Virus record (IMG/VR): IMGVR_UViG_3300031787_000780
Location: 1 to 24,951 of that record
Length of the DNA: 24,951 nucleotides
From: a virus
Direction: 5' to 3' (one strand)
The notes under the pieces were generated by a model. It was given only the letters and a program-made list of their open reading frames with translations, had not been told where the DNA came from and searched no databases. Position 1 is the first letter of the stretch, and each line of letters begins with the position of its first letter. Position numbers and translations under genes: made by a program. This document shows, piece after piece, positions 3,056-21,018 of the stretch.

Positions 3056-3240
3056 AGCGGCACAACGTCCGGGTGGCCGAGCGCGTTGCAAAGCTGTCCG
3101 CCGAAATCCCGGAGGACGACTACTGTGAGGGCGTCATGCCGCTGGCGATCGGGCACTTCATGCTGGACCGCATGCGCAGCCACGGTCGCGCCAAGGAACG
3201 CAACGCGCCGGTTCGCCAGATTCGGGGTGGCCGTCGGTGA
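3052..3240 (+). CDS. Hypothetical small basic protein
   Basis: 62 residues, GTG start overlapping the previous TGA (GTGA), and itself overlapping the portal start by four bases, so it is translationally coupled on both sides. The product is basic, with Arg/Lys clusters at both ends and a central acidic turn, EIPEDDYCEG (18-27), followed by a hydrophobic helix (VMPLAIGHFMLDRM). I do not recognise the family. Position between terminase and portal suggests a head or packaging accessory. Confidence rests on the tight overlaps and on codon use like its neighbours. Confidence 0.68.
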   Translation: MKRHNVRVAERVAKLSAEIPEDDYCEGVMPLAIGHFMLDRMRSHGRAKERNAPVRQIRGGRR

Positions 3241-4880
3241 GCGACCGCACGCAGTTCCACATCCAGAAGCTGGGGGCGTTGCGGCAGGAGCGCGGCAACT
3301 GGAACCAGCAATGGGAAGAAGCGGCCTCGCTGATTATCCCGGCGCACCGCAATTCGTTCCAGTCGTACGGCATGGACAACGCCTACGGCAACACCGGGCA
3401 GAAGAAAACCGAGCACCAGTTTGACGCCACGGTGGGTATCGCCGCGCAGCGTTTCGCTGCGGTGATCGAGTCGCTGTGTACGCCGCAGAATCAGGAATGG
3501 CATCGGCTGGTGCCGGCCGACAAGACGTTGAAGCGCAACCGCGCGGTGCGCCTGTTCTTTGACGAACTGAACCAGCGGCTGTTTGAACTGCGCCGGCGCC
3601 CGGTGGCCAACTTTGTTGGCAACAGCCAGCAAGTCTATCTGTCGCTGGGCGTGTACGGCAACGGGCAGATTTTCGTCGATCAGCCCGACGACGAGCCGGG
3701 TCTGCGCTACCGCAACATGCACCTGGGCGAAGTCTACTACGTCGAGAACCACGCCGGCATTGTAGACTCGTTCTATCGGGCGTTTTATCTGAGCGCCCGC
3801 CAGATCGTGCAGATGTTTTCGAAACCCGGCGATTCGGTGCCCGAGGAGATCAAGGAGAAGTTGAAGAATCCGACGCAAGCCGAGCAAAAGATGGAAGTTT
3901 TGCATTGCGTCTACCCGCGCGAGGACTACGACCAGCGGCGGGTTGACCCCCGCGGCATGCGCTACGCTTCGTTGTACATCCTGAAAGATTCGCAGCACGA
4001 ACTGCGCGAGTCCGGGTTCAACAGTTTCCCGATGCCGACCGCGCGTTACACCCAGGTCAGCGGCGAGACGTACGGCCGCGGTCCGGCGCAGTGGGTGCTG
4101 CCGTCGATCAAGGTGCTGAACGAGGAAAAGAAAACAGTCTTAAAGCAGGGCCAGCGCGTGGTGGATCCAGTGCTGCTGGCGCACGACGACAGCACGCTCG
4201 GCAGTTTCAGCCTGCGCGCCGGGCACCTGAACCCCGGCACCATGAGCAAGGACGGCAAGCGATTGGTCGATGTGCTGCCGACCGGCAACATTGCAGTGGG
4301 CGACAAGTTGATGGAGATGGAGCGGTCGGTCATCAACGACGCGTTCCTGATTACGCTGTTCCAGATTCTGATCGACACGCCGCAGATGACGGCGACCGAA
4401 GTGCTGGAGCGGGCGCGCGAAAAGGGCATGCTGATTGCCCCGACCGCCGGCCGCATCAACTCCGAGTTCCTGGGCCGGCTGATCGAGCGCGAACTTGACC
4501 TGATGTTCCAGCAGGGGCTGATCCCGCCGCTGCCGCCCATCCTGCAGGACACCGAAGCGGCCGAGTATTTCATCGAGTACGACAGCCCGATGTCCCGGAT
4601 GCAACGCGCCGAAAAGGCCGCCGGCTTCATGCGGGCGTTGTCCGTGGCGGCCGAGTACGCCAAGAACACCGGTGACGTGTCGCCTCTGGACCATTTCAAC
4701 TTTGACGTGGCGATGCCGGAGATTCTGGACATCAACGGGGCGCCGACGGCGTGGACCCGTTCGATGGAAGAAGTTGAGCAGATTCGCGCCGGCCGCAACC
4801 AGCAGGCGCAAGACCAGCAGTTGATCGAGGCCGCGCCTGCCGTGGCGGGCCTGGCCAAGGTCGCACAACCCGGCGCTTGA
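3237..4880 (+). CDS. Portal (head-tail connector) protein
   Basis: A 547-residue podovirus-type connector, which forms the dodecameric ring at the capsid vertex through which DNA enters and leaves. Family features include WNQQWEEAASLIIPAHRNSF (22-41), the IESLCTPQNQEWHRL stretch (78-92), the SLGVYGNGQIFVD segment near residue 135, and the C-terminal half with MTATEVLERAREKGMLIAP followed by an FLGRLIERELDLMFQQGL helix. Length is normal for the head-tail connecting family of T7-like and BPP-1-like phages. The start is a GTG overlapping the upstream stop (GTGA), and no better start exists. The last ~25 residues are Gln/Ala-rich. It is followed by a candidate promoter at 4877. Confidence 0.95.
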   Translation: MSDRTQFHIQKLGALRQERGNWNQQWEEAASLIIPAHRNSFQSYGMDNAYGNTGQKKTEHQFDATVGIAAQRFAAVIESLCTPQNQEWHRLVPADKTLKRNRAVRLFFDELNQRLFELRRRPVANFVGNSQQVYLSLGVYGNGQIFVDQPDDEPGLRYRNMHLGEVYYVENHAGIVDSFYRAFYLSARQIVQMFSKPGDSVPEEIKEKLKNPTQAEQKMEVLHCVYPREDYDQRRVDPRGMRYASLYILKDSQHELRESGFNSFPMPTARYTQVSGETYGRGPAQWVLPSIKVLNEEKKTVLKQGQRVVDPVLLAHDDSTLGSFSLRAGHLNPGTMSKDGKRLVDVLPTGNIAVGDKLMEMERSVINDAFLITLFQILIDTPQMTATEVLERAREKGMLIAPTAGRINSEFLGRLIERELDLMFQQGLIPPLPPILQDTEAAEYFIEYDSPMSRMQRAEKAAGFMRALSVAAEYAKNTGDVSPLDHFNFDVAMPEILDINGAPTAWTRSMEEVEQIRAGRNQQAQDQQLIEAAPAVAGLAKVAQPGA

Positions 4881-4904
4881 CAGCCCCTGCCGGCGTGGTA
4901 GAGT
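4877..4904 (+). promoter_or_regulatory. Sigma70-like promoter after the portal gene
   Basis: TTGACA (4877-4882), a 16-base spacer, then TAGAGT (4899-4904) preceded by TGg, an extended -10. The -35 is a perfect match and overlaps the end of the portal gene. This is the best-formed sigma70-type promoter I found in the window. It would drive the Bbp19-like, glycosyltransferase and scaffold genes. Confidence 0.65.
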
Positions 4905-4948
4905 GTCGTTCTGAGGCACTGTCGCCTTCAAAGGAAACGCCTGACCTG

Positions 4949-4966
4949 ATGAAAGTCAGCCTGTGA
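4949..4966 (+). promoter_or_regulatory. Five-codon leader frame coupled to the next gene
   Basis: ATG AAA GTC AGC CTG TGA (MKVSL). It follows AAGGAA at 4931-4936, and its stop overlaps the GTG start at 4963. CTGAC (4941-4945) and GTCAG (4955-4959) form a small hairpin around it. The following gene has no ribosome site of its own, so re-initiation from this leader could supply its translation. This is inferred from layout only. Confidence 0.35.
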
Positions 4967-5229
4967 CGCGGGCCGAACTGATCGAAGTTGCCCGCCGGTT
5001 TCTGTTCCGCCGCCGGCACAACTACATTCTGACCTTCCGCAGCGCGCCGGGGCAGGAAGTCCTGCGCGATCTGGCGCCGTTCTGTTACGCGAATTCGTCC
5101 ACGTTCAAGCCCAACGAGCGCGAACACGTGTTGGCGGAAGGCCGCCGTGAAGTCTGGTTGCGGATTGCGAACCACCTCAACATGTCGCCCGAGGAACTGT
5201 GGCGGCTTTATGATGGACGGGAAAGCTGA
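4963..5229 (+). CDS. Bbp19-like phage protein
   Basis: An 88-residue protein resembling the short Bbp19-like proteins found in head modules of BPP-1-like and related phages. Typical features are the Phe/Tyr/Arg-rich start (ARRFLFRRRHNYILTF, 10-25), SAPGQEVLRDLAPFCYAN (27-44), and the middle ANSSTFKPNEREHVLAEGRR (43-62), ending in a helix. Function is unknown in the family; a head-assembly role is inferred from conserved position near portal and scaffold. GTG start with no clear ribosome site, possibly coupled to the five-codon frame just upstream. Its stop overlaps the next ATG by one base (TGATG). Confidence 0.8.
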   Translation: MTRAELIEVARRFLFRRRHNYILTFRSAPGQEVLRDLAPFCYANSSTFKPNEREHVLAEGRREVWLRIANHLNMSPEELWRLYDGRES

Positions 5230-6251
5230 TGTGGCGTAACGGCATCGAGTTGCTGTCGGACACGCAGTTCAACATGGTGTTCAACCACGGCGCGCTGGGC
5301 GATGTGATCTGTTCGCTGCCGGCGGCGGTCCATGCGCGGCGCACCCACGGCGACGCGCTGACCATCCGACTGTGGGTTCCGCCTTGGCAAATGGAATTGA
5401 TTGACCACCTGATGAAGCCCTACGGCAAGTTTGAGATCAGGGACTTTACCGACTTTCCGATGAAAAAAGTCGAGCGTGAGGGCTGGGGCATGGGGCCGGT
5501 GGCCATCAACCAGATGCCGTTCAACACGCACACCCGCAACCGGGTTCACATGGTTGACTATGCGTTCGGTTGTCTGCTCGACGCGCGACCGGAAAACATG
5601 GCCGAGCGCAGCTACCCGACCAAGGCACCGCTCGGCAAATCGCCGGTACATGCGCCCTACGTCGTGTTTCCGGTCGGGGCTACGTCCGAGAACAAGCTGT
5701 TCAAGGCGCACGTCATGGGGCCGGTCATCGAGTGGGCGCTGGACAACGACTGCACGCCCGTGCTGGTTGGCACCAAGACCAGCCACACGCACACGCAGAT
5801 CGGCGACGACGTATCCACCAAGCCTATCGACATCATCGACGAAGTGGACAAGCTGCCGAAGGCGCTGTTCGACGAGTGCGTTGACCTGCGCGAAAAGACA
5901 ACCCTGCTGGGCTTGCGCGATGTACTCGGCCACGCGGATGCGGTTGTGGGTGTCGATGGCGGCACGCTGCATTTGGCCGGCACGACCGACACCTGCATCA
6001 TCTACGCGCTCGGCACGACGTTGCCGAAGCACCGCTACATCGCGCGCCGCGGCAATCCGAATCACAAGATCCGTTATGTCGGCCCGCGCGATCTGGAGTG
6101 CGCCGGTTGCCAAAGCAACATGACGCTGATGTTCCACCACGACTTCCGGCACTGCGTCTACAAGGACAGCCTCTGCATGGACAAGCTGCACCCGGAAGAT
6201 TTTATCAACGGTCTGAAAGAACTTTTCAAGGAGTATCCGCATGCCGAATGA
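5229..6251 (+). CDS. GT9-like (heptosyltransferase-type) glycosyltransferase
   Basis: 340 residues with the two-domain GT-B pattern of the ADP-heptose:LPS heptosyltransferase group. The N-terminal domain has FNHGALGDVICSLPA (18-32), the usual nucleotide-fold start. The C-terminal domain starts near VVFPVGATSENKLF (145-158) and carries LLGLRDVLGHADAVVGVDGG followed by TLHLAGTTDTC (226-256), the donor-binding signature with an Asp-Gly-Gly-x-x-His order. Four cysteines follow (291, 294, 309, 316), as in many GT9-type proteins. The donor sugar and acceptor cannot be told from sequence. It is embedded in the head operon, overlapping the Bbp19-like gene by 1 base and the scaffold gene by 11, so it should be expressed late. 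It might modify capsid protein, DNA or host surface sugar. Fold confidence is high; biological role is open. Confidence 0.85.
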   Translation: MWRNGIELLSDTQFNMVFNHGALGDVICSLPAAVHARRTHGDALTIRLWVPPWQMELIDHLMKPYGKFEIRDFTDFPMKKVEREGWGMGPVAINQMPFNTHTRNRVHMVDYAFGCLLDARPENMAERSYPTKAPLGKSPVHAPYVVFPVGATSENKLFKAHVMGPVIEWALDNDCTPVLVGTKTSHTHTQIGDDVSTKPIDIIDEVDKLPKALFDECVDLREKTTLLGLRDVLGHADAVVGVDGGTLHLAGTTDTCIIYALGTTLPKHRYIARRGNPNHKIRYVGPRDLECAGCQSNMTLMFHHDFRHCVYKDSLCMDKLHPEDFINGLKELFKEYPHAE

Positions 6252-7086
6252 CCCGACCCCCGCTCCGACTCCGAATCCCGCGCCCAGTCCGGCGCCTTCC
6301 GGCGATCCGGCCCCTTGGCACGGCCTGACCGACCCCGATGCCCTGTCGTACATCCAGAACAAAGGCTGGACCAACCCGGCGGATGTCATCAAGTCCTACC
6401 AGGGCGCAGAAAAGTTGATCGGCCGCGACCCGAGCCAGGTGCTGGTGTTGCCGCGCGCAGACGACCCGGACGGCATGCGGCAGGTGTTCCAGAAGCTCGG
6501 CAAGCCCGAGAAGCCGGACGCCTACAACATGAAGATCGGTCTGCCCGACGGCGCGAAAGTGGACGAGGGCTTTGCTAAGTCCATGCAGCAGCTGCTCCAC
6601 AAAGCCGACATTACCGAGGCGCAAGCCAAGACTTTGATTTCTGACTACAACAGCATGCTGGCCGCTGCTGCGGCGCAACAAGCCAAGGACTACGAACTCA
6701 ACGTCCAGGCCGACAAGCAGGCGCTGCTCGACGAATGGAAGGGCGGCCACGACCGGATGATGGGCAAGGCCAAGGCCGCGGCGCAGTCGCTGGGTTTCAC
6801 GCCCGATCTGATCGACGCCATCGAAAAGCAGGTCGGCTACGCCGCGACCTACAAGATGTTCGCGGGGATCGGCGCTAAACTGGGCGAGGACGGTCTGGTG
6901 ACGACCGGCGGCAAGACGCCGAGTTTCGACGGCATGCTGACGCCGGCTGAGGCCAAGGCGCAGTGGGACCAGTCGAAGCTCGACCCGAACTTCATGGCCG
7001 CCCTGACCGACCCGCAGCACCCCGGCCACAAGGCGGCGCAGGAGAAGCAGACCCGCCTGTTCAAGGTCATGTACCCCGATGGCTGA
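6241..7086 (+). CDS. Scaffolding protein
   Basis: 281 residues, acting inside the procapsid to guide capsid assembly and then lost. The first 28 residues are a Pro/Ala linker (starting PNDPTPAPTPNPAPSPAP). Then comes LSYIQNKGWTNPADVIKSYQ (35-54), followed by GAEKLIGRDPSQVLVLPRAD, the N-terminal motif shared by scaffold proteins of BPP-1-like podoviruses. The middle is a long Ala/Gln/Lys helix region (about 110-200). The C-terminus ends with DPNFMAALTDPQHPGHKAA and a basic helix, as expected for capsid binding. AAGGAG at 6228-6233 is a strong ribosome site, so the 11-base overlap with the glycosyltransferase does not prevent independent initiation. It stands one small gene before the capsid gene. 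Confidence 0.85.
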   Translation: MPNDPTPAPTPNPAPSPAPSGDPAPWHGLTDPDALSYIQNKGWTNPADVIKSYQGAEKLIGRDPSQVLVLPRADDPDGMRQVFQKLGKPEKPDAYNMKIGLPDGAKVDEGFAKSMQQLLHKADITEAQAKTLISDYNSMLAAAAAQQAKDYELNVQADKQALLDEWKGGHDRMMGKAKAAAQSLGFTPDLIDAIEKQVGYAATYKMFAGIGAKLGEDGLVTTGGKTPSFDGMLTPAEAKAQWDQSKLDPNFMAALTDPQHPGHKAAQEKQTRLFKVMYPDG

Positions 7087-7411: not shown

Positions 7412-8305
7412 ATGCCTGACGCAATCACCGTTGCCTCGGTACAGCAGTACAAGGCCAACGTCGAACTTCTCCTGCAACAGCAGGATTCCCGGCTTCGCAA
7501 CGCCGTCACCGTCGGTTCCTACGTAGGCAAAGCCGCCAGCGTGGTCGAACAGTTCGGTGAGGCCACCGCAGTCGAACGCACCAGCCGCCACGCCGACACT
7601 CCGCTTCTGGATCTGTCGCAGTCCAAACGCTGGGTGTTCCCCAAGGATTACGAGTGGGCCAGCCTGATTGACAACCCGGACCGCCTGCGCGCGATCATCG
7701 AACTCACCAGCCCGTACGCCATGGCCGGCGCCGCCGCCATGAACCGCGTCATGGACGACGTGATCTTGGCCGCCATCTTCGGCACCAACTTCATCGGTGA
7801 AAACGGCACCACGTCCGAAACCTTCGGCACCGTCGGTTCCGGCGCCTTTGATGTCGGCGTCAACGTCGGCGGCACCGCCTCGAGCCTCAACGTCGCCAAG
7901 CTGCAGAACTCGATCCGTCTGCTGATGACGGCGAACCGCGGTGAACTGAACGAGCCGGCCTACGGCGCCATTTCCAGCTTCGAGCACGACGCGCTGCTCA
8001 AGGAAATGCAGATCGTCAACAAGGACTACGGCAACAGCGCGGTCCTGGTGGACGGCAAGGTGTCGAAGTTCATGGGCGTGAACTTCATCATCACCGAGCG
8101 CCTGACGATCACCAGCGGCAACCGCCTTGTGCCGATCTGGCTCAAGAGCGGCATGCACCTGGGCATGTGGGAAGGCGTGACTGCCAAGATCACGGAACGG
8201 AACGACAAGGGCCACGCGACCCAGGTCTATCTGTCCATGACCCTCGGCGCCACCCGCACCCAGCTCGGTAAGCAGGTCCGCGTTTCCTGCGACGACCAAA
8301 TCTAA
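7412..8305 (+). CDS. Major capsid protein
   Basis: 297 residues, HK97-fold type of the podovirus capsid family to which the BPP-1 capsid protein belongs. Family-like segments are LLLQQQDSRLRNAVTVGSYV (19-38), then an E-loop-like region with ERTSRHADTPLLDLSQSKRW (55-74), and DYEWASLIDNPDRLRAIIEL (78-97), the spine helix region. A central Gly/Thr insertion (TNFIGENGTTSETFGTVGSG, 125-144) follows. The C-terminal half holds KFMGVNFIITERLTI and VYLSMTLGATRTQ, usual for these proteins. Start at ATG 7412 with a clear ribosome site. Own promoter and leader upstream, decoration-like gene and strong terminator downstream, so this is a separately controlled high-expression unit. Confidence 0.93.
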   Translation: MPDAITVASVQQYKANVELLLQQQDSRLRNAVTVGSYVGKAASVVEQFGEATAVERTSRHADTPLLDLSQSKRWVFPKDYEWASLIDNPDRLRAIIELTSPYAMAGAAAMNRVMDDVILAAIFGTNFIGENGTTSETFGTVGSGAFDVGVNVGGTASSLNVAKLQNSIRLLMTANRGELNEPAYGAISSFEHDALLKEMQIVNKDYGNSAVLVDGKVSKFMGVNFIITERLTITSGNRLVPIWLKSGMHLGMWEGVTAKITERNDKGHATQVYLSMTLGATRTQLGKQVRVSCDDQI

Positions 8306-8320: not shown

Positions 8321-8827
8321 ATGACCGTTCGCACCGGAATTTCCCAGGTTGTTCAGGACCAGTCGGCCAACCCGCCGGTCAAGACCAATCAGCTCGAAAA
8401 AGGCGGCATCGTCCGCACCGCGCAGGGTTACTTGGCCGCGGCCAACTTCCCCGGCGGCACCGTGGGCCAGTGGTACACGTTCGTCCGGCTGCCGGCGCGC
8501 GCTCGCGTGCTCGGCATTTTCCTGACGGGCGCGACCACGACCACCGGCGCCGTGCGCTGCGGCCTTTACCGCCCGGATGGCATCGCCATCGACGACGACG
8601 TGTTTGCGACCAACTATGCCATGTCGGTCGAGAAAGACCGCGCCGACATCATGGTGACGCCGACCGCGCTGGAGCGTTCGCAGTCGCTGGCCGAAGCCTA
8701 TGCCACGGCCATCGGCACCGCGGGCGCCACCAACGATGTCGAGTTCGACATCGCGCTGGCCATTGTCACGGTGCTCGGCTCGGCGCAGCCGCACCTGCTG
8801 GAAGTGGACTACGTACTGCCGGAATAA
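8321..8827 (+). CDS. Capsid decoration/cementing-type protein
   Basis: 168 residues directly after the capsid gene, where BPP-1-like phages encode their cementing protein. The sequence is beta-rich with a short N-terminal arm (residues 1-35, with PPVKTNQLEKGGIVRTAQGY), a core with VGQWYTFVRLPARARVLGIF, and alternating Gly/Thr turns; no enzymatic motif is visible. A jelly-roll-like head-stabilising role is inferred from position and composition. GGGAGAAG supplies the ribosome site. A strong terminator begins about a dozen bases after its stop, closing the capsid unit. Confidence 0.75.
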   Translation: MTVRTGISQVVQDQSANPPVKTNQLEKGGIVRTAQGYLAAANFPGGTVGQWYTFVRLPARARVLGIFLTGATTTTGAVRCGLYRPDGIAIDDDVFATNYAMSVEKDRADIMVTPTALERSQSLAEAYATAIGTAGATNDVEFDIALAIVTVLGSAQPHLLEVDYVLPE

Positions 8828-9125: not shown

Positions 9126-9707
9126 ATGGGCCGGGTTGTCCGACTTCGCAGCACCATCGCCCGTCCGGCGGACCTGACGGCATACACTGCTGGCGACGAG
9201 ATCAGCAACAGCGCTACGGCGGGCAGCGCGAGCCGCATGACGTTTGACATGCAAGGTCTTGAGAACGGCCAAATCCTGTCGGCAAAAGTCGATCTGACCG
9301 CGGCCAGCGGCGACGTTGTGACCACGGCGGCGGACTTCGAGTTGCTGATCTTCCGCACCAGCGACGTGCCGGCGGCCGTTGGCGACAACGTGACCAACCC
9401 CATCGCTGCGGCAACCCGGTCGCTCGCGGTCGCTCGTTTCCGACTGGACGACGGCGGCTGGTATAACCCGTTGGGCGCGGTTGCCGCGGGCACGTCGCAG
9501 TTCCAAGCGGTGCCGCCGACGCTGGTGCAGCCGCTGGCGACGCCGGTGCTGGAGTACCCGGCGTTCGGCGTGCCGTTTACTTTCGACGGCACCCCGCTGA
9601 CGGTCGCCGGCCGGCAGTTTACCGCGGTCCTGCGCGCGCTGGGCGCGTGGACTCCGGGCGCGGTAGTCAACACTTTCGGCGTAACCCTCGACATTGACCC
9701 GACGTAA
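9126..9707 (+). CDS. Phage structural protein, unknown role
   Basis: 193 residues. The start is RLRSTIARPADLTAYTAGDE, followed by a Ser/Ala stretch, a pattern seen in virion proteins encoded between capsid and tail-tube genes of BPP-1-like phages. The remainder alternates short beta strands and Gly/Pro turns, with no catalytic motif, membrane segment or coiled coil. TAAGGAG is its ribosome site. A head-decoration or head-tail junction role is inferred from location only. Confidence 0.78.
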   Translation: MGRVVRLRSTIARPADLTAYTAGDEISNSATAGSASRMTFDMQGLENGQILSAKVDLTAASGDVVTTAADFELLIFRTSDVPAAVGDNVTNPIAAATRSLAVARFRLDDGGWYNPLGAVAAGTSQFQAVPPTLVQPLATPVLEYPAFGVPFTFDGTPLTVAGRQFTAVLRALGAWTPGAVVNTFGVTLDIDPT

Positions 9708-19593: not shown

Positions 19594-21018
19594 ATGCCGA
19601 CGACAAACGGTAATCGCAAGATACTCGACCTCAAGCGATGGGAGTTCTGCGCTCCCGCGCCGAACATAAATGGTTCGGGGATGCTGATTTCATCCTCCAG
19701 ACATTTTCGGCAGCAACAGCTTTTTATTCGCTCCATTACCGAGGCGTACATCTACAATCCGTCAGAGGATGGATGGGTCCTGATACCCAACCCTGCGCTT
19801 GCAGCGGCGGTTGGCGCTGGCCTTTCGGCAACAGCGGCTGCTTGGAGCATCGGCACGGCGACGGCGGCAGCTTCTTTGACCGCGACGGGCGGCACGACAT
19901 CGACCATCATCACCAACCAGACGCTTGCCCGCGATCTGCGCGGCTACAAGGTTCAAATTCTCGCGGGTCCGAATGCCGGGGCCGTGCTGGATATCGTGAG
20001 CAACACTGTCGCCACTAACGCGGTCATTACCGTGGCGACGCAGGCGTCGGCCTTCTCGGCATCGACGGTTTACCGCTTGCTGACGCCGACTTGGTATGTC
20101 GCGGGCAACGGCTCAACTGCGGCGGCTTCTTTTCGCAAGTATGACTATGCGACAAACACTTGGACCACGCTGGCAAACATGCCCATTGCCTTTGGCACGG
20201 ACGCCAAGCTGATCGCCACACCGTCCGTCGTTGACGGCGCGTTCAAGAATTTTGCCACCGGCACCGCGACCTCGGCCACGGCCACGACGCTGACGCAGAC
20301 CGGCAAAACATGGACTGCTTCGCAATGGATTAATAGTCAGGTCCGCATCACTGCCGGAACTGGTGCTGGCCAAATCCGCACCATCACGGCCAATACTGGA
20401 GACACACTTACCGTTGCCACTTGGACCACCACGCCGGACGCAACGTCGCAGTATGCCATCGGAGGCAACGACGATTTCCTGTATTTGATGGGCAACAACG
20501 CCGTCACCCTTTACCGCTACTCGATCTCGGCTAACACATGGGCGACGCTGACGCCTGTTGCGGCGCGGGCGGCTGCCCCCAACATAGGAATGTCTGGGCA
20601 TTGGGTTCACTCGGCACCGGAAAGCGACTGGAATAACGAAAGCGCGATCCTGAACGGACGTTTCATCTACTCGTTCCAAGGCGGCGCGACAAGCGGCCTG
20701 CATCGCTACGACATCGCAGGAAATACATGGGCGACGATTACCTACTCGCCAAGCACCGAGACCTTCACAGCCGGGACAAAATACGCGCTGCACAACGGAA
20801 CGCTCTACGTCCAAAAGGATGCGACAGGACGGTGGTTTGCCTACGATTTTGCAAGAAGTGAGTTGTTTCCGTGGAGCGTTATGCTTTATCCGCAGGGTGC
20901 CGCTGCTGTCGGGGATACGGCGTTCGACGTAATTTATGAGGATGGCGCAACAGACATTTACTACGTTTATATACTCCTCAACTCGTCCAACGTTTTGCTC
21001 CGGCAAATGGTGATCTGA
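19594..21018 (+). CDS. Kelch-like beta-propeller tail protein
   Basis: 474 residues. Aromatic blade motifs of Kelch type recur: AYIYNPSEDGWVLI (51-64), KYDYATNTWTTL (182-193), LYRYSISANTWATL (306-319), LHRYDIAGNTWATI (369-382) and WFAYDFARSELFPW (414-427). Two related beta modules are inserted between the early blades, about 107-165 (GYKVQILAGPNAGAVLDIVS) and 240-290 (VRITAGTGAGQIRTITANTG). Beta-propellers act as binding platforms, so a receptor-binding or baseplate-like tail role is likely. No signal peptide or membrane segment. The 3' third is richer in A/T than neighbouring genes, which may mark exchange of this adhesin-like gene between phages. The stop overlaps the following small gene. 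Confidence 0.82.
   Translation: MPTTNGNRKILDLKRWEFCAPAPNINGSGMLISSSRHFRQQQLFIRSITEAYIYNPSEDGWVLIPNPALAAAVGAGLSATAAAWSIGTATAAASLTATGGTTSTIITNQTLARDLRGYKVQILAGPNAGAVLDIVSNTVATNAVITVATQASAFSASTVYRLLTPTWYVAGNGSTAAASFRKYDYATNTWTTLANMPIAFGTDAKLIATPSVVDGAFKNFATGTATSATATTLTQTGKTWTASQWINSQVRITAGTGAGQIRTITANTGDTLTVATWTTTPDATSQYAIGGNDDFLYLMGNNAVTLYRYSISANTWATLTPVAARAAAPNIGMSGHWVHSAPESDWNNESAILNGRFIYSFQGGATSGLHRYDIAGNTWATITYSPSTETFTAGTKYALHNGTLYVQKDATGRWFAYDFARSELFPWSVMLYPQGAAAVGDTAFDVIYEDGATDIYYVYILLNSSNVLLRQMVI

Follow-up and report, generated by a model that had tools for sequence, protein, structure and literature searches.

The question raised by this locus is what a glycosyltransferase of the GT9 family does among the head genes of a podovirus, and which molecule receives its sugar. 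The window (the whole 24,951-base stretch of DNA analysed, a virus record in IMG/VR) has a podovirus gene order of terminase, portal, scaffold, major capsid protein (MCP) and tail genes. Among GenBank phages, its MCP and portal are nearest to those of the uncultured Manatee Spring podovirus (MW202898), the MCP being next nearest to those of Pelagibacter phages. The reading that we favour, with a probability of roughly two in three, is that the GT9 enzyme O-glycosylates the phage's own capsid cement protein in a TibC-like manner, being made together with the head proteins. The genes concerned are the following.

3237-4880, plus strand: portal/head-tail connector (Pfam PF12236)
4881-4962, plus strand: portal-Bbp19 junction, empty in the window but occupied by an S-adenosylmethionine (SAM) methyltransferase gene in roughly half of the relatives that have GT9
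4963-5229, plus strand: Bbp19-like gene (Pfam PF25181, E 3e-13), sharing one base with the GT9 gene
5229-6251, plus strand: GT9 glycosyltransferase with a TibC-like fold, 340 residues (Pfam match and structure model)
6241-7086, plus strand: scaffold-like gene, starting inside the GT9 gene (11-base overlap)
7412-8305, plus strand: MCP (Pfam PF19821)
8321-8827, plus strand: predicted capsid cement (decoration) protein, 168 residues, proposed sugar acceptor (fold match of the model and covariation with GT9)

The GT9 reading frame begins with ATG and contains no internal stop, in agreement with the original prediction of a complete enzyme. Both overlaps by which that prediction had placed the gene within the operon were found, the 1-base overlap with the Bbp19-like gene reading ..GCTGATGTGG.. 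and the 11-base one having AGGAG immediately 5' of the ATG of the scaffold-like gene (6241), and the GT9 gene is coupled by translation to the rest of the head operon. Relatives were collected by searching with the MCP, the GT9 and the cement protein, and form a clade of uncultured podoviruses in which a full-length GT9 gene occupies the Bbp19-scaffold slot in all members covering the region except two (L005 and L129). Since the copy is full-length and at the same spot in all but these, its placement is not due to chance. Of 64 relatives, 59 have overlapping Bbp19 and GT9 genes (the other five have gaps of 29, 29, 411, 415 and 756 bases), and a 4-base GT9/scaffold overlap is present in 25 of 65. 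The slot holds no GT9 gene in the outgroups (MCP 36-44% identical), tblastn with the window's GT9 detected no relative in GenBank phage records and PHROGs contains no family for it. The genome scan returned no cellular copy, but one phage-like contig in a metagenome-assembled genome labelled 'Acidobacteria': this GT9-carrying contig of 39 kb (L127), binned with an uncultured acidobacterium, is a weak host hint. As separate observations, HNH-like endonuclease genes are found at varied head-operon junctions (Bbp19-GT9, GT9-scaffold and scaffold-MCP) in L030, L098, L104, L113, L087 and L054, the calls at the GT9 junctions of L030, L104, L098 and L113 being made by eye from the sequence, and a distinct GT9 lineage that shares the cysteine pattern occurs at L191:336-1370 and L209:7962-8960.

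The window's protein scores 33.5 bits (E 3.6e-8) with Glyco_transf_9 (PF01075), for which the cut-off is 22. The catalytic Asp in the N-lobe and the D-x-G-x-x-H motif in the C-lobe that define GT9 members are both present, with D25, D243, G245 and H248 invariant; conservation was scored in an alignment of 26 relatives, which also locates the other residues expected of the active site.

5301-5303, plus strand: Asp25, counterpart of the catalytic base (WaaC Asp13, TibC Asp110), invariant in the 26 relatives
5682-5696, plus strand: Thr152 (invariant) and Lys156 (Arg in L047), with the spacing of the sugar-donor binders Thr226 and Lys230 of TibC
5955-5972, plus strand: D243-G-G-T-L-H248, the GT9 nucleotide-sugar signature, with D, GG and H invariant in the 26 relatives
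6099-6176, plus strand: Cys291, Cys294, Cys309 and Cys316, a four-cysteine cluster similar to the TibC iron finger, invariant in the 26 relatives

In TibC, Asp110 is the catalytic base, Thr226 and Lys230 bind the sugar, and Cys339, Cys342, Cys358 and Cys370 form the iron finger (PMC4358343), to which, judging from the sequence, the cysteine cluster of GT9 is equivalent. The counterparts of these residues follow one another in GT9 in the order of TibC. No position could be assigned to counterparts of TibC Arg286 and Trp305; among the residues that could be located, there is none of the loss of donor-site residues in relatives that the original prediction had held to count against it.

Searches of PDB sequences with phmmer and hmmsearch yielded only chance matches (aldolase, ARF) or WaaC with an E value of about 1.4, so that a comparison of folds, also proposed by the original prediction, was needed. 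The AlphaFold2 model (pLDDT 89, pTM 0.90) has TibC (4rap, E 3.8e-14) as its best PDB match, followed by lipopolysaccharide (LPS) heptosyltransferase II (2e-11) and WaaC (1e-8). TibC/Aah (the BAHT family; TIGR04414; PDB 4rap and 4rb4) therefore provides the closest solved fold, and shares with the window's GT9 the catalytic Asp, the Thr/Lys spacing and the four-cysteine finger. However, TibC also has an N-terminal beta-barrel (residues 1-97) and a beta-hairpin thumb; the window's GT9 is without the barrel, its model entering the Rossmann N-lobe from residue 13 with Asp25 aligned to TibC Asp110. Furthermore, it scores 15 bits with TIGR04414 against a cut-off of 200, and only weak matches are given by 15 of the 26 relatives (best E 3.5e-7). 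Given the missing barrel and the score below the cut-off, GT9 is not filed as a BAHT, although it may work like TibC. TibC acts on a protein and is encoded beside an autotransporter, whereas the neighbours of the window's GT9 are phage head genes.

Among these neighbours, the 8321-8827 product is, on the evidence of its modelled fold (pLDDT 78), an Ig-like capsid cement protein: its four best fold matches are all phage cement proteins, namely those of Pam1 (4.1e-5), KHP30 (1.4e-4), KHP40 (5.9e-4) and GP4 (1.1e-3), at moderate TM scores of 0.43-0.53. As in relatives and outgroups, its gene lies directly 3' of that for the MCP. The Pam1, KHP30/KHP40 and GP4 proteins, which share the fold of the predicted acceptor, are located on the outer capsid surface, and the available text of PMC9698820 describes a GP4 head decorated by 540 cement copies, with no glycosyltransferase partner mentioned there.

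The trees of GT9 and of the cement protein show a common split between type A and the rest. In the 45 loci bearing both states on the backbone tree, the two types, which were defined after the pattern had been seen, agree in every case (35 A/A, 7 B/B and 3 with type-C cement and no GT9), and three loci found later with the cement query (L229, L232 and L242) raise the agreement to 48 of 48. Type-C loci other than L005 and L129 (see below) have no GT9 in the Bbp19-scaffold slot; one of them, L191, encodes a GT9 of another kind, 5' of the gene for the large terminase subunit. In loci with GT9, the cement protein conserves Thr72, Thr129, Thr133 and Thr150, which are mostly lacking from type C. Thr133, conserved at 95% in the GT9-associated cements and absent from GT9-free type C, lies in a loop that may contain the acceptor.

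8717-8731, plus strand: cement residues 133-137 (TAGAT), candidate acceptor loop, from the conservation of Thr133

The two exceptions to full-length GT9 bear directly on this relation. L005 is the closest relative of the window (MCP 93%, portal 84%), but its cement protein is of type C, foreign and resembling that of GT9-free phages. Its GT9 gene has undergone an internal in-frame deletion that leaves residues 1-16 and 297 to the end, and its methyltransferase gene is cut to the start and the last 60 residues, out of frame; no further GT9 was found in its contig of 43 kb. L129, a sister of L005 whose separate contig comes from a different metagenome, shares this type-C cement, with neither GT9 nor methyltransferase at the locus. 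Since the type or absence of GT9 matches the cement type across relatives, GT9 probably adds sugar to the cement protein.

The strongest alternative, although improbable, is that GT9 alters the LPS core of the host late in infection, leading to superinfection exclusion or to release from debris, and that the link with the cement protein is coincidental mosaicism. This was the role preferred by the original prediction. It is in keeping with GT9 family membership and with the fold, which also matches WaaF and WaaC (LPS heptosyltransferases II and I, sharing the GT-B fold and the catalytic Asp). Sequence scores also favour the LPS heptosyltransferase I model, weakly matched by 26 of 26 members, over the TibC model (15 of 26), all being far below the cut-offs (32.2 bits for the window's GT9 against 185.3 in TIGR02193). 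However, the WaaC and WaaF structures match less well than that of TibC, a protein heptosyltransferase, and an LPS-operon context is absent. Moreover, the variation of GT9 follows that of the cement protein and not that of portal, tail or scaffold genes: GT9 and cement distances give a Mantel correlation of 0.75, and a partial correlation of 0.74 when MCP and scaffold are controlled for (p 0.0005, the smallest value attainable with 2000 permutations), as compared with 0.19 or less for the remaining gene pairs of GT9 in the same test. The coincidence of GT9 loss with cement replacement in L005 and L129 also argues against an action on LPS, so that the preference for the LPS core is not borne out.

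Slightly less probable is that GT9 glycosylates another virion protein, such as the MCP, a tail protein or the product of the variable frame at 9126-9707, with the cement protein merely co-occurring. The position of the gene in the head operon would suit such a target, and so would the mycobacteriophages, in which phage-encoded glycosyltransferases put glycans on capsid and tail tube subunits (Freeman et al. 2023, as cited in PMC11652166 and PMC12619734). However, GT9 shows partial correlations of zero or close to it with the MCP, the 9126-9707 product and the tail genes, in a test that omitted tail fibres as too variable, and the MCP remains similar where the GT9 type differs (81% in L016). 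The frame at 9126-9707 of the window, lying between the cement and tail genes, encodes 193 residues that match no family; it varies or is undetected among relatives independently of GT9, and its product may be a second decoration protein. Further downstream, the tail region encodes a Kelch-repeat protein (19594-21018; PF01344, E 6.6e-10) undetected in the compared relatives, most of which end short of that region.

We regard as equally improbable that the types of GT9 and cement protein co-segregate through shared head-operon recombination alone, with no enzyme-substrate relation. Phages are mosaic and the independent events are few: independent contrasts on well-supported branches are concordant in three of three cases (sign test p 0.25), and, for L025 and L016, the B/B swaps are supported by the tree, but a single B clade is not rejected by AU tests (p 0.125 and 0.058) and each swap could be a single exchange of scaffold and MCP. 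Within type A the GT9-cement partial correlation is 0.22, versus 0.36 for GT9-portal and 0.30 for GT9-scaffold, and is thus not specific; with so weak a signal there, the case for the GT9-cement link rests on few type changes. On the other hand, scaffold and MCP, positioned between the two genes, do not follow the link, and in L005 the cement gene has been replaced, and GT9 and methyltransferase have decayed separately, but the genes flanking them and lying between them still resemble those of the window. Furthermore, independent change simulated on the backbone tree gave full agreement in none of 20,000 runs (maximum 96%).

Glycosylation of phage DNA bases, a common activity of phage glycosyltransferases (PMC12619734), is very improbable, as a thymidylate-synthase-type hydroxymethylase is absent from six relatives of about 43 kb and such a target gives no reason for the cement link. 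Thus, of the targets listed by the original prediction (virion protein, DNA or host sugar), only the first is upheld, by the TibC-like fold and the covariation with the cement protein, and its view that modification takes place during assembly is judged right.

Glycosylation of the cement protein would proceed as follows. A cytoplasmic, TibC-like protein O-glycosyltransferase, produced along with the head proteins, would transfer a sugar, probably heptose from the ADP-heptose pool of the host, to Ser/Thr residues of the 8321-8827 product before or during decoration of the capsid by cement trimers. The sugar may shield or stabilise the virion, or favour adhesion to surfaces. A methyltransferase encoded nearby probably caps it by methylation in about half of the relatives. 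Between portal and scaffold, a full-length methyltransferase gene is present in 28 of 55 GT9-bearing loci versus none of 51 GT9-free loci. The enzyme is a SAM methyltransferase (Methyltransf_11) encoded between portal and Bbp19 (L014, L089, L015, L054, L037, L121 and L242 being among the carriers); in L122 its gene lies in the GT9-scaffold gap. L109 instead encodes a methyltransferase of the FkbM type in the Bbp19-GT9 gap, and the portal-Bbp19 junction of the window encodes none. A lineage gaining a cement protein of a different type would take the matching type of enzyme, and one gaining the GT9-free kind would lose the enzyme.

Among the papers searched, none was found to connect the capsids or cement proteins of phages with GT9 enzymes or heptosylation. 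In mycobacteriophages, the reported targets belong to the capsid and tail tube themselves, whereas the uncultured podoviruses have a TibC-like GT9 and, as its proposed target, a separate cement protein. We give about even odds that this is a previously undescribed system, in which a TibC-like heptosyltransferase, often with a sugar methyltransferase, is dedicated to a trimeric cement protein, each virion bears hundreds of (methyl-)heptose-carrying copies, and enzyme and cement protein are exchanged as matched pairs.

Natural gene swaps and decay would thus name the acceptor of an orphan phage glycosyltransferase, two genes forming an enzyme-substrate pair. If this is true, virion glycosylation would extend to uncultured environmental podoviruses, beyond the capsid and tail cases reported for mycobacteriophages. 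Some of the phage GT9/TibC-like genes would also be explained outside LPS modification, public records already giving the names RfaF or Aah/TibC to other phage proteins with this fold, and a small module of two or three genes for adding sugars to phage capsids would become apparent.
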